DNA of 53,463 bases from Gammaproteobacteria bacterium (lineage in GTDB: Bacteria > Pseudomonadota > Gammaproteobacteria > UBA6429 > Thiohalophilaceae). A program made the position numbers and the translations under genes. Positions 12,890 through 17,500 of this stretch are shown piece by piece. The stretch spans positions 1 to 53,463 of the forward strand of contig JAPHTF010000037.1 in the NCBI GenBank assembly GCA_026197095.1. Reading direction: 5' to 3'. The notes under the pieces are model-generated. The model searched no databases. It was not told the DNA's origin and was given only the letters and a program-made list of their open reading frames with translations. Each line of letters begins with the position of its first letter. Positions within the stretch are counted from its first letter, which is position 1.

Positions 12890-13903
12890 ATGAAAAAAAG
12901 TATGGATAGGCGTACTTTTTTAAAATTCAGCAGTGCAGGTATTGCAAGTGCATTAGTAACGAGTACAGGCCTGCTAAGTTGGAATCCACGCGCTGAAGCA
13001 GCAACTATTAACCAAACGTTTTATATCACTGAAGGGTTTATTACTCAGCCGGATGGTGTTGATGTTTATTTCAGAGGTTTTAGTCCAGGCAGAAATAACC
13101 TGACGGTTCCCGGTGCACAAATGATTGTGCAAGAAGGGGATACTGTCCGGGTGACCATCGTTAATACTTTAGGCACGAGTCATAGTTTCAAAATTGACGG
13201 CATTATTGACAGTGGGCGTATTCGGGGTGGTGAAAGCAAAACAATTGAATTTCAAGTTAACCGCGCTGGCACTTATATGTATTACGATGCGCGCAATGCA
13301 CCTTATAACCGCTTAAGTGGTTTGCATGGAGGTTTTGCGGTAATGCCAAACGGCAGCAGTAATAAAGTTTATGCTGGCAGCCCCACCTTTGTTCAACAAT
13401 ATTTCTGGTTATTCCATGATATTGATCCGGTCTGGCACAACACCATTCGAAATGGCAATACGCCCAACACTCGATACAGTCCCCGCTATTTCACCATGAA
13501 TGGTTTAAGCGCGCGCCCACCTGGTGCACCCGGGGCCATGGATCCAAATACAGATAGCATGGCCGATCCACGTTCTGCATTACATGGTCACGTCGGTGAT
13601 CGTACCTTAGTCAGAGTGCTTAATGCCGGACTCTGCCAGCAATCAGTACATACTCATGGTAACCACATGGAATGGCTTACTGATAATGGCCAGGTACGTG
13701 ACGATGTCTGGTCGAAAGATTGCATCTATCTTGAAGGCAACATGGGTAAGTTTGATGCCATCTATCCATTTGAATCCCCACCAGATGCCTGGCCGCCTGT
13801 TACAACAGGGATCTATCCAATGCATTTGCATACAGAAATGTCACAAACCGCAGGCGGTGGTCTGTATATGTTTGGCGCGCTAACTGACATTCACTTTGAG
13901 TAA
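12890..13903 (+). CDS. Multicopper oxidase subunit carrying type 2/3 motifs 1-2 (Tat signal)
   Basis: A 337-residue protein with a Tat-type signal (DRRTFLKF at 6-13, then a hydrophobic stretch, cut near AEA at 35-37). Two cupredoxin domains follow. Domain 1 (about 39-155) has lost copper ligands: the places of the HxH motifs read HSF (98-100) and YMYYDA (129-133). Domain 2 (about 160-337) has HTHGNH (His254, His256, His259) and MHLHTEMSQTAGGG (His312, His314), matching the first two laccase motifs that feed the type 2/type 3 cluster. No Cys with type 1 context is present. The next gene, 11 bases downstream, supplies the missing motifs. A periplasmic subunit of a heteromeric oxidase is inferred; the substrate is unknown. 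Confidence 0.82.
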   Translation: MKKSMDRRTFLKFSSAGIASALVTSTGLLSWNPRAEAATINQTFYITEGFITQPDGVDVYFRGFSPGRNNLTVPGAQMIVQEGDTVRVTIVNTLGTSHSFKIDGIIDSGRIRGGESKTIEFQVNRAGTYMYYDARNAPYNRLSGLHGGFAVMPNGSSNKVYAGSPTFVQQYFWLFHDIDPVWHNTIRNGNTPNTRYSPRYFTMNGLSARPPGAPGAMDPNTDSMADPRSALHGHVGDRTLVRVLNAGLCQQSVHTHGNHMEWLTDNGQVRDDVWSKDCIYLEGNMGKFDAIYPFESPPDAWPPVTTGIYPMHLHTEMSQTAGGGLYMFGALTDIHFE

Positions 13904-13914
13904 GGGGAATCATT

Positions 13915-14964
13915 ATGGGAAGAAGACGATCAAGTAATACTGATACAACAACAACGACATCATCAATGGGCGGTGGTGGTGGAATGGGCGGCGGTGGCGG
14001 CGGTATGGGTGGTGGCGCATGCTATGTTTATCCTGGTGCACCTGCAACTCCCGGTTTAGTGAATGCCGATGTCACTTTTAACCTGGGCATTGATATGAAT
14101 ATTCCACTCACTATGGATGATGGCACCACCATTAACATGTGGGGCTTTAGTGGCAGTGGTGGCGGTATGGGTGGCATGGGTGGAGCGGGCACTTTTCCTT
14201 CACCGGCTATGCGGGTAACCGAAGGTGATATTGTTCATACTAATCTCAGTGTGAATATGATGATGATGCACACTATTCATCACCATGGCATTGAACCCGC
14301 GCATACTTCTGATGGTGTCGGGCACATCACCTGGGATGTTGCCAATGGCACCTATACATATCAATGGCGACCTGCTCATGCAGGAACCTACTTTTATCAT
14401 TGCCACACCAATACCGTATTGCACGCGGAAATGGGAATGTATGGTGCACTCATTGTTGATCCCCCCGAAGGTGCTGGAACCTTATTCTCGGGTGGTCCTG
14501 ACTATGATGTAGAAGCATTTTGGGTTGTTGATGAAATTGATTCGTCATGGCATACCTTGCCCTGGACAGCTGGAACATGTGGGGGTGATGTAGGTTTAAA
14601 CGAACTCAATCCTGATTATTTTGTCATTACTGGTGTGGATGGTAGCGGTAATAGTGCGATGAATGCCCCGCCCATTTCAGCCACGGTACAACGTGGTCAA
14701 AAGTTACTGGCGCGTTATATTTGCGCCGGTTACCACCCACAAAAAATTCGCTTTGGTGGTTTAACCGGAAAAATCTATGCCTCGGATGGCAGACCACTTC
14801 CAAAACCTGTAAGTGTGACTGAAATTCGTGCAGCTTCTGCAGAACGTTATGACATTATCTTTGAACCTGCCCAAACAGGAACCTATCTTATTGAAACAGA
14901 CATTATCCATTGGGTAAGCGGAGATGTACTTGGGACAACACGCGCAAGTATTACCGTAGTTTAA
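13915..14964 (+). CDS. Multicopper oxidase subunit carrying the type 1 site and motifs 3-4
   Basis: A 349-residue protein without a visible signal peptide. It opens with a hydrophilic Thr-rich stretch and a Gly/Met-rich linker (about residues 18-35). Cupredoxin domain 1 (about 45-185) has HTIHHHG (His119, His122, His124, equivalent to the HxxHxH motif) and YHCHTNTVLHAEMGM (His162, Cys163, His164, His170, Met175), equivalent to the HCHxxxH(x)4M motif with two extra residues. A second Gly/Met-rich segment lies at about 81-91. Domain 2 (about 195-349) has no copper ligands. Motifs 1-2 are missing here but present in the preceding gene. An upstream GGGG gives a ribosome binding site. Export without its own signal suggests transport as a complex with the Tat partner (inference). 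Confidence 0.82.
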   Translation: MGRRRSSNTDTTTTTSSMGGGGGMGGGGGGMGGGACYVYPGAPATPGLVNADVTFNLGIDMNIPLTMDDGTTINMWGFSGSGGGMGGMGGAGTFPSPAMRVTEGDIVHTNLSVNMMMMHTIHHHGIEPAHTSDGVGHITWDVANGTYTYQWRPAHAGTYFYHCHTNTVLHAEMGMYGALIVDPPEGAGTLFSGGPDYDVEAFWVVDEIDSSWHTLPWTAGTCGGDVGLNELNPDYFVITGVDGSGNSAMNAPPISATVQRGQKLLARYICAGYHPQKIRFGGLTGKIYASDGRPLPKPVSVTEIRAASAERYDIIFEPAQTGTYLIETDIIHWVSGDVLGTTRASITVV

Positions 14965-15070: not shown

Positions 15071-15679
15071 TCACATCACTGATCGTAATGTAGCGACTAT
15101 ATCATCTGGACTAGTGCCATGCTCAATGAACGTTTTGACCTTACCATCTGAGTCCATAACGTAATAACGAGAAGAATGATCAACCGCATACCCCATGGCT
15201 GAATTTGGCATATTCACCTTCATATACATCACACCATAGCGTTTCGCGATATCTGCTAATTGTTCTTTTGTACCCGTAATTCCCTTAATACTGGGATGAA
15301 AAGCCGCAGTATAAGTTTTGAGTTTATCGACCGTATCGCGTTCCGGATCAACACTAATAAAAAAAGCTTGTATCTTCTTCAGTTCTTCAGGTTTTAATTT
15401 TTGCAGTGCTAATGAAAGCAGCCCCAAACTGGTTGGGCAAACATCTGGACAAAACGCGTAACCAAAATATAAAACAATCACTTTATCTTTATAGTCAGAA
15501 AGTGAGACCGGGCCTTCTGCCGATTGCAAAACAAAGTCTCCACCGATTTCTGCGTAAGCTTGCAACGTATTATGCTTGGCGGGGTTGTTCTGCAATAACA
15601 GTGCTGAGCCGGCGATTAAAATGATGACACTTAAGCTCAGTACGATAAGTGAAGTTCGATTGATTTTTTTATCTGTCAC
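15071..15679 (-). CDS. SCO1/SenC/PrrC-family copper chaperone
   Basis: A 202-residue thioredoxin-fold protein anchored by one N-terminal membrane helix (about residues 11-30). The copper-binding CxxxC motif is FCPDVC with Cys77 and Cys81, and the third ligand His168 is in the AVDHSS segment. These proteins deliver copper to the CuA site of cytochrome oxidase or act as periplasmic thiol-disulfide proteins. The gene follows the PCuAC gene, 20 bases away on the same strand, which is the usual partnership for periplasmic copper delivery. It converges with the oxidase pair, so the copper theme of this block is clear. Confidence 0.93.
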   Translation of the reverse strand: MTDKKINRTSLIVLSLSVIILIAGSALLLQNNPAKHNTLQAYAEIGGDFVLQSAEGPVSLSDYKDKVIVLYFGYAFCPDVCPTSLGLLSLALQKLKPEELKKIQAFFISVDPERDTVDKLKTYTAAFHPSIKGITGTKEQLADIAKRYGVMYMKVNMPNSAMGYAVDHSSRYYVMDSDGKVKTFIEHGTSPDDIVATLRSVM

Positions 15680-15699
15680 TTAAATTTATCCTGAATAGT

Positions 15700-16185
15700 T
15701 TACTGTTGCTTTCTCATTTTCATCATACCCATACCTGCTACTTCTTTAACCGGTACAGATACTTTAACTATTTCACCATTATCAAACTCAAGTGCCAGAT
15801 CAATGTTGTTGCCTACTGTTAGCTGCTGTTTAAGACCGATAAACATAATATGTAAACCACCCGGTTTTAATACCGTTTGACTTTTTGTCTTCACCACAAT
15901 CTTCTCAACCTGACGCATGCGCATCATGCCACCTTCTTTTTTATGGGTGTGAAGTTCAACAACGTTACTAATGGAGCTACTTGCTTTGACTAATGCACGA
16001 TCTTGAGATGAGGTATTATTGAGCACCATAAAAGCGGCACTATTTGGATGGCCTTCGGCAACTGCGCGAGCATAAGGATTCATAACTGAGACACTGCCTG
16101 CTGCATAACTTGTAATGGAGATTAATGTTAAGGCAAGTATACTCATTGCCGTGTTAACTAAGTTATACATATTATGACTGGCCAT
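15700..16185 (-). CDS. Periplasmic copper chaperone PCu(A)C
   Basis: The frame is open further upstream, but the ATG at 16185 has a good ribosome binding site (AAGGA) and gives a signal-peptide N-terminus, so a 161-residue protein is chosen. The copper motif H-x10-M-x21-H-x-M fits exactly: His79, Met90, His112 and Met114. A Met-rich tail (GMGMMKMRKQQ) follows the beta-sandwich. PCuAC binds Cu(I) in the periplasm and passes it to cytochrome oxidase assembly factors. It is the first gene of a two-gene unit with the SCO protein. Confidence 0.9.
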   Translation of the reverse strand: MASHNMYNLVNTAMSILALTLISITSYAAGSVSVMNPYARAVAEGHPNSAAFMVLNNTSSQDRALVKASSSISNVVELHTHKKEGGMMRMRQVEKIVVKTKSQTVLKPGGLHIMFIGLKQQLTVGNNIDLALEFDNGEIVKVSVPVKEVAGMGMMKMRKQQ

Positions 16186-16360
16186 TGGTTTTTCCTTTTG
16201 TACAGGTGCACTATTAATTTTTAAAGTGGCATTGTCTTCTATACAACAACATTTAACGTTGATTTTGATCAAGTTTGCTCTTTTAAATTACTTATTCAAG
16301 TATCGAGCGTGATAAATCTGAATTTAGCTTAAATTAAATATCTTTTTACTTTTACCAGGC

Positions 16361-16414: not shown

Positions 16415-17341
16415 TTATTCCCACTCAAGCTCGGTGTACACCTTAAGCGCATTGCGGCCGCTTAATGTATCAAAGTTACTCAAATAATTAAATTTTGATT
16501 GATTAATTTTACTGATATCTGATGCATCACCACCCTGTTCGATAAATACTGCAATGGCATTGCGCAAATGTGCAATATAGTCACGGGTATCTTTTATAGC
16601 GATGTTTAAAGTAGTCGGAGAGCCATGGCCGGGAACAATATGCTGTGGTTTATGACTTGCCATCGCATCGAAAGATGCTAACCAGGTTTTACTTTTTGAC
16701 TGCTCACCTATACCTAACATACGTTCGGTATAAACTATGTCACCGGTAAACATCACTTTACTCTGGGGTAACCAAATAAATGCATCGCCGGGTGTATGTG
16801 CCTGGCCACGATGATAAACCTCAAACTGTATGTTTCCTAAAGTAAATTTATAGTCCGCTTTAAAAACAATATCAGCAAATTTTTCCTTAGTTCCTTTAAT
16901 ACCTTCTGCACCAATCAGTGTTTCCAGCATTGACCATTGTGAACTTGAACGTGTTTGATGATCTTTTTTAGCGGCCTCACTGGAAATAATTTTTGCACCT
17001 AAAGAACTAAAATAATCATTTCCAAACCAGCGATGATCCTGGCCACCTGAATTAATAACATAACGGACTGGTTTGTTGCTAACAGTTTTAATTATTTCAT
17101 GTATTGCTTTAGCTCCATTAAAACTGCCTCCTGAATCAATCAGAACAATGCCTTCATCGGTTACCACAAAACCAAAGGTTGCATTGTTGCCCAGATTTTC
17201 TTTGTCACGGTTCGTTAACGGCCCAACTATTGACCAAACATTATTATCAACTTTCTTTAAAACAAGATTTTGCTTTTCAGATGCATAAGAAAAACTGCCA
17301 TACATACAAAATAAAAGAATAAACAGTTTAAATTTTTTCAT
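16415..17341 (-). CDS. Exported metallo-beta-lactamase-fold protein with altered first metal motif
   Basis: The ATG at 17341 gives a signal peptide (MKKFKLFILLFCMYGSFSYA) and a 308-residue protein. The metallo-beta-lactamase fold is clear from FVVTDEGIVLIDSGG, His182 (GQAHTPGDAFIW), Asp201 (FTGDIVY) and His239 (VPGHGSP). The usual HxHxDH motif reads SGGQDH (98-103): the two first His are Ser and Gly while Asp102 and His103 remain. Metal site 1 should therefore be lost, and site 2 residues (Asp102, His103, Asp201, His239) could still bind one metal. I believe a subfamily with this GGQDHRW signature exists, but could not check it. The neighbours suggest the periplasmic copper/oxidase block; the substrate is unknown. 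Confidence 0.75.
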   Translation of the reverse strand: MKKFKLFILLFCMYGSFSYASEKQNLVLKKVDNNVWSIVGPLTNRDKENLGNNATFGFVVTDEGIVLIDSGGSFNGAKAIHEIIKTVSNKPVRYVINSGGQDHRWFGNDYFSSLGAKIISSEAAKKDHQTRSSSQWSMLETLIGAEGIKGTKEKFADIVFKADYKFTLGNIQFEVYHRGQAHTPGDAFIWLPQSKVMFTGDIVYTERMLGIGEQSKSKTWLASFDAMASHKPQHIVPGHGSPTTLNIAIKDTRDYIAHLRNAIAVFIEQGGDASDISKINQSKFNYLSNFDTLSGRNALKVYTELEWE

Positions 17342-17500
17342 TATGGCTTTCTCATAGTGGATTAAGGAAAGGTGGTAGCGAGATAATAAGAACAAATAAC
17401 CTTTATAATTAAAAGGTTATCATACTCCTATTATCTATCTTGCAGCTAGCGCTAATTTATTGATTAACTCAATTTGAAGCCTGAATAAAAACCAGGAAGT

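Follow-up and report, generated by a model that had tools for sequence, protein, structure and literature searches.

Two adjacent genes on the forward strand of the window (the whole 53,463-nucleotide stretch analyzed, whose coordinates are used throughout) each encode a protein of two cupredoxin domains. The upstream open reading frame (P1) and the downstream one (P2) are 11 nt apart, and a ribosome-binding-like AAGGGG stretch is present. P1 begins with MDRRTFLKF, a twin-arginine signal, and its Pfam multicopper oxidase matches are Cu-oxidase_3 in domain 1 and, weakly, Cu-oxidase_2 in domain 2. P2 begins with MGRRRSSNTDTTTTT followed by Gly/Met-rich repeats, is without a hydrophobic stretch at this end, and matches Cu-oxidase_3/_2 in domain 1 and Cu-oxidase in domain 2. 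The features of the locus are as follows.

12890-13903, + strand: P1, putative cluster-half subunit, two-domain cupredoxin of 337 aa (open reading frame, Pfam, invariant ligands, profile match to 2zwn, structure model)
12908-12925, + strand: twin-arginine (Tat) motif RRTFLK of P1 (sequence; TIGR01409 match above cutoff)
13007-13354, + strand: P1 domain 1, ligandless cupredoxin, limits approximate (PF07732 at residues 70-153; ligand table)
13649-13666, + strand: HTHGNH of P1 domain 2 (residues 254-259), predicted cluster ligands H254 and H256; invariant in 22 P1 rows and aligned with HSHGH of 2zwn domain 2
13820-13840, + strand: MHLHTEM of P1 domain 2 (residues 311-317), predicted cluster ligands H312 and H314; invariant and aligned with HDH of 2zwn
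13915-14964, + strand: P2, putative type 1 half subunit, two-domain cupredoxin of 349 aa with a Gly/Met-rich N-terminus and no recognizable signal peptide (open reading frame, Pfam, match to 3g5w)
14269-14289, + strand: HTIHHHG of P2 domain 1 (residues 119-125), predicted type 1 ligand H119 and cluster ligands H122 and H124; invariant and aligned with HTIHWHG of 3g5w
14398-14439, + strand: HCHTNTVLHAEMGM of P2 domain 1 (residues 162-175), predicted cluster ligands H162 and H164 and type 1 ligands C163, H170 and M175; invariant and aligned with 3g5w
14497-14961, + strand: P2 domain 2, ligandless cupredoxin, limits approximate (PF00394 at residues 230-329; ligand table)

The two open reading frames and the motifs named in the initial annotation hold when the residues are checked. 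HTHGNH and MHLHTEM lie in P1 domain 2, and the only cysteines of P1, C249 and C278, both sit away from the type 1 position. HTIHHHG and the type 1 motif lie in P2 domain 1, as had been described. The N-terminal domain of P2 has the entire type 1 copper site (H119, C163, H170, and M175), which is absent from P1, together with four histidines of the trinuclear cluster; P1 domain 2 has the remaining four. For each of these histidines, the choice between type 2 and type 3 copper is made by analogy. The outer domains, P1 domain 1 and P2 domain 2, have essentially no copper ligands, a loss noticed at this single locus that the ligand table of homologues bears out. All eight ligands of P2 and all four of P1 are invariant across family members and, since they are also missing from the other domain of each chain, the split is not a matter of chance.

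P2 aligns over both domains with 3g5w (residues 92-337, E 1.1e-22), the blue copper oxidase of N. europaea, and HTIHHHG and HCHTNTVLHAEMGM match HTIHWHG and HCHVNVNEHVTMRGM in this alignment. A profile of the P1 family matches 2zwn across both domains (residues 39-331, E 2.3e-20), a metagenomic laccase that is of type C, like 3g5w. Here HxHGNH falls on HSHGHD and MHLH on FHDH, which are the cluster histidines of domain 2. A structure model of P1 (18 alignment rows) has two cupredoxin domains (pLDDT 76, pTM 0.78), and its closest solved whole-chain matches are two-domain copper enzymes, namely 4kns (Z 24.2), 3gdc (24.2), 3g5w (24.0), and 2zwn (23.7), scores that are tied at the given precision. 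The model superposes on 3g5w at 2.3 Å over 250 residues, and NirK is also among the best matches. A linked P1-P2 read-through chain, taken from a relative with P1 and P2 in frame and with TAG read as Gly, was modeled from only 14 rows, and its confidence (mean pLDDT 53, pTM 0.43) is too low to be informative about the interface. Of the earlier reading, the division of the four motifs between the two genes stands, with one correction of wording: homology points away from the three-domain laccase and to a type C two-domain oxidase, in which the type 1 domain comes first.

Conservation of the pair across genomes

The pair occurs widely within the family to which the window belongs (closest 58 genomes). 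Across a class-wide sample of 369 genomes, strong matches to P1 and to P2 occur in 23 genomes each, 22 being common to both, and in the two genomes with only one of the genes this gene lies at a contig end. The survey for the same gene pair that the initial annotation had suggested recovered 51 unique adjacent pairs with complementary ligand halves. All 51 are encoded on one strand with P1 first, and the halves are never swapped or merged: the type 1 half is solely in P2 and the cluster half solely in P1. One P1, in a MAG, is disrupted C-terminally, where it runs out of frame and loses the HxH ligands. Among 83 tabulated homologues, domain 1 of every P2-type chain has HHHHCHHM and domain 2 of all P1-type chains but the disrupted one has HHHH, and the opposite domain of either type retains at most one isolated His. 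Invariant positions number 18 of 160 in the live domain 2 of P1 versus 8 of 116 in its dead domain 1, and 24 of 132 in the live domain 1 of P2 versus 9 of 154 in its dead domain 2. The distance matrices of P1 and P2 are correlated (r 0.91 over 46 pairs, with 0 of 2000 permutations as high), a value to which shared species history contributes.

We also considered whether the pair is a decaying or misassembled, frameshifted single gene; there is indeed a frameshift in one plasmid copy in addition to the disrupted P1 of the MAG. However, two conserved open reading frames with separate starts are present in 51 pairs, and the survey already refutes this reading, which we consider to have a negligible probability. 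Furthermore, a simple break of one oxidase gene would not yield the pattern because each chain has two full cupredoxin domains.

The actinobacterial plasmid copies (survey loci L183 and L184) comprise a run-on and a solitary P1. On the plasmid of Arthrobacter FW305-BF8, the P1 frame continues into P2 with no stop or new start between them; an apparent frameshift lies within P2 domain 1, for which sequencing error and decay are both possible. If intact relatives of this run-on exist, they would represent a natural P1-P2 fusion. Plasmid pTC1 has P1 beside mntH, without a detectable P2. No natural fusion of the pair was found in gammaproteobacteria among the sampled genomes. A 669-aa single gene (L129) was considered as a fusion and rejected, as its product is an ordinary type C-like oxidase extended by an additional region at the C-terminus. 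Three loci (L098, L148, and L156) considered as intermediates with a full and a dead paralogue were also rejected, the partners of the full genes being NirK-like and not dead. Separately, we note that single-gene type C oxidases adjoin a NirK-like gene at L098, L148, and L157/L158. The viral contigs searched contain no pair, and the sole viral-contig match (L180) is a different cupredoxin gene. On a MAG contig titled Nitrosomonas communis (L054), the pair is ~65% identical to the gammaproteobacterial one, which could reflect either transfer or mis-binning.

Export and the proposed enzyme

Export signals were judged by motif and hydropathy alone. P1 has a Tat signal (RR.F[LIM]-type motif) in 41 of the 51 pairs, and for 40 of these 41 a simple hydropathy scan detects no hydrophobic N-terminus on P2; the hydrophobic start of the remaining P2 is an artefact of an over-extended ORF start. 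The arrangement in these pairs, one subunit with a twin-arginine signal and a partner without, is that of Tat co-export. Divergent Sec-type pairs have a hydrophobic leader on both proteins, and in one further subgroup a few divergent P2s have an apparent Tat/lipoprotein-like signal of their own. A Tat signal on P1 combined with a signal-less P2 is consistent with Tat hitchhiking and so with folding of a P1-P2 complex before export. Judging from these signals, P2 most likely folds against P1 while still in the cytoplasm, and the two are exported together.

We considered whether the two proteins could have separate functions and be merely co-transcribed, with P2 as a type 1 blue-copper electron carrier and P1 as a periplasmic copper-binding protein or chaperone. 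The type 1 site is complete in P2 alone, the HxH...HxH set of P1 alone could bind copper, and SCO1 and PCuAC chaperone genes adjoin the pair in the window. However, a lone type 1 site requires none of the four cluster histidines that are invariant in P2, the histidines of P1 fall exactly on the cluster positions of 2zwn domain 2, an evident export signal is usually missing from P2, and the chaperone genes beside the pair are not conserved. This possibility thus seems unlikely to us. It is very improbable that P1 is a mere Tat escort or scaffold and that the enzyme is a P2 homo-oligomer, possibly nitrite-reductase-like with mononuclear type 2 copper. P2 matches copper nitrite reductase models and the Tat signal does come from P1, but P2 has HCH where NirK has HC-G, its domain 2 is without a conserved His at the type 2 position, and the invariant domain 2 histidines of P1 would be unexpected in a pure escort.

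From the sequence evidence, P1 and P2 are very probably paralogous subunits of one secreted heteromeric multicopper oxidase with its active site where P2 domain 1 meets P1 domain 2. Since complementary halves are retained in dozens of genomes, a working enzyme would almost certainly form only at the contact between P1 and P2. The obligate heteromer with an interface active site proposed in the initial annotation is supported at this level by the 51 pairs, the co-occurrence of the genes, the Tat pattern, the correlation of the distance matrices, and the precedent of two-domain trimers. Single genes with all four motifs, which had been expected to speak against it, do exist; they do not damage the proposal, as these ordinary type C oxidases, with both ligand sets in one chain, fall in a clade of their own. 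The solitary P1 of pTC1, the disrupted P1, and the P2s with signals of their own weigh against the proposal, whereas the excess of invariant positions in the live domains, the three-gene operons described below, and the Arthrobacter run-on frame speak for it.

Published two-domain oxidases are trimers in which two protomers supply the residues that coordinate the trinuclear cluster, and the type 1 copper of type C oxidases is in the N-terminal domain (PMC13151041; PMC3192119). The ancestor of the heteromeric oxidase was very probably a homotrimeric type C-like two-domain enzyme of this kind, with each cluster placed where domain 1 of a subunit faces domain 2 of its neighbor. Following gene duplication, each copy would have retained one half of the interface, domain 1 in P2 and domain 2 in P1, so that a complete site would be found solely where these two domains meet. 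Electrons would enter at the type 1 copper of P2 and reach the shared cluster along the His-Cys-His path of that chain, O2 would there be reduced to water, and P1 would provide the Tat signal for the complex. By analogy with its closest structurally characterized relatives, the complex probably has one active site in a trimeric ring of six cupredoxin domains. The gene pair, its homology and co-occurrence, the conserved ligand sets, and the fold of P1 are observed here, whereas we infer the assembly, stoichiometry, and activity of the complex, as well as its function in the O2-reducing oxidation of some reductant.

Three-gene operons, phylogeny, and known oxidases

Several genomes encode three tandem two-domain cupredoxin genes (L087-L092 and L174-L177). 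In these operons, A has the type 1 half, B has the cluster half, and C, which often has long C-terminal repeats or giant extensions, has neither. The three-gene form is also found on the megaplasmid of Cupriavidus metallidurans CH34 (L185, NC_007974.2 1338010-1350900), where the ligandless subunit is giant; as CH34 is a cultured laboratory strain, the system is amenable to genetics. Operons such as L087, L090, and L176 have in common a giant upstream gene (SdrD_B/fn3-like regions), a ~150-aa protein that matches no Pfam family, and a downstream subtilase.

B and C are sisters, with support of 100/97 in the careful tree and of 89 with ligand regions masked, and the ligandless third subunit C is derived from the cluster-half lineage. 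Within a trimeric ring with one live interface, a P1-derived third subunit would need no domain 2 histidines; C has lost these histidines, and this loss favors a one-site ring. As the dead third subunit is sister to the P1-type, P1:P1:P2 is mildly favored in two-gene systems as well, and a stoichiometry of two P1 and one P2 would be the slightly preferred one. One genome with P1-P2-P2', apparently across two contig ends (L161 and L173), argues against a universal ratio of two P1 to one P2; both of its P2 proteins have intact ligand sets and Tat/lipoprotein-like signals. Together, A, B, and C have the appearance expected of a six-cupredoxin-domain ring with a single active site, a "split ceruloplasmin."

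The full alignment places the P1-type chains (P1, B, and C) in one group (97/94) and the P2-type chains (P2 and A) in another (97/91). The single-gene type C and NirK rows lie apart from both groups (99/93). The sub-groups of the two types mirror each other, as is partly expected from common species history. A single origin of the split is favored by the full alignment. With the ligand regions masked, deep branches are weak and an alternative A+B+C grouping is drawn; the AU test does not reject the single-split arrangement (p 0.67), and at this resolution of the deep branching the data would be compatible with either one split or two.

Classification of multicopper oxidases assumes a full ligand set in each chain. 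Like type C enzymes (3g5w and 2zwn), the pair has two cupredoxin domains per chain, its type 1 site in the first domain, and its trinuclear ligands split between the first and second domains; the homology is full-length, and P1 is also similar in fold. Unlike the pair, type C enzymes have both halves in every chain and form a homotrimer with three sites. No chain among the tabulated family members and the 51 pairs combines both trinuclear halves, and P1 and P2 do not cluster with the known single-gene type C oxidases in trees whose deep branches are weak under masking. Because the halves are on two gene products, no single chain can form a site. By its sequence, we class P1-P2 as a heteromeric variant of the type C two-domain oxidase that lies outside type C itself, as the defining single-chain ligand set is missing.

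Ceruloplasmin and Bacillus MnxG are single-chain six-domain oxidases that form a ring with one trinuclear cluster and ligandless domains. The pair, known from sequence, is expected to resemble them in having a ring of six cupredoxin domains, one cluster, and ligandless domains, but two or three separate genes are involved here; each chain has two cupredoxin domains, and those of the three-gene operons would sum to six. NirK/AniA share the two-domain trimer fold (P1 model), whereas their site is a mononuclear type 2 site with one domain 2 His, compared to eight cluster His in the pair. The NirK-like genes adjoining oxidases have HC-G, in contrast to the HCH of P2 with no conserved His in domain 2. 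The three-domain laccases, CueO, and CopA have the same four copper-binding motifs, but in one chain of three domains.

Complementary pairs or triples are not described in the literature that we searched, where two-domain enzymes appear as trimers of a single protomer type. We see an about even chance that the pairs and triples constitute a new class of obligate heteromeric multicopper oxidases, in which six-domain rings of two or three different two-domain subunits would have exactly one site and represent a living link from homotrimeric two-domain oxidases to six-domain ones made of a single chain (ceruloplasmin and MnxG). The split system has the look of a natural halfway stage between simple three-copy copper oxidases and large six-domain ones, human ceruloplasmin among them, and the heteromer offers a testable bridge toward the latter. 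Its catalytically incomplete subunits would be a clean natural case of complementary degeneration (subfunctionalization) at an interface active site. Annotation or expression of single genes would misjudge P1 and P2 as dead or as lone laccases.

Neighboring genes and substrate hints

No conserved neighbors that indicate a substrate were found across families. Hints at the function are weak: the Met-rich stretches in P2, which might suggest Cu(I), the SCO1/PCuAC genes near the pair in the window, a gene for an NRAMP Mn transporter that adjoins the copies in Arthrobacter and Paenarthrobacter, and a CRP/FNR-family regulator. The substrate could be Cu(I), Mn(II), or a small reductant. The regulator gene is found ~400 bp or less from P1 at seven loci that represent different genera (L065, L067, L068, L074, L077, L080, and L081). 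The SCO1 and PCuAC copper chaperone genes are just downstream of P2 at 15071-16272 on the - strand. They adjoin the pair in the window and one close relative only, and SCO1 is also beside one Sec-type pair. A SoxH-related metallo-hydrolase (TIGR04559, below cutoff) is encoded at 16415-17395 on the - strand and is near the pair in close relatives as well. A CopA-like match in the window's own genome (G000:C101:29379-29699) has an in-frame TAA.
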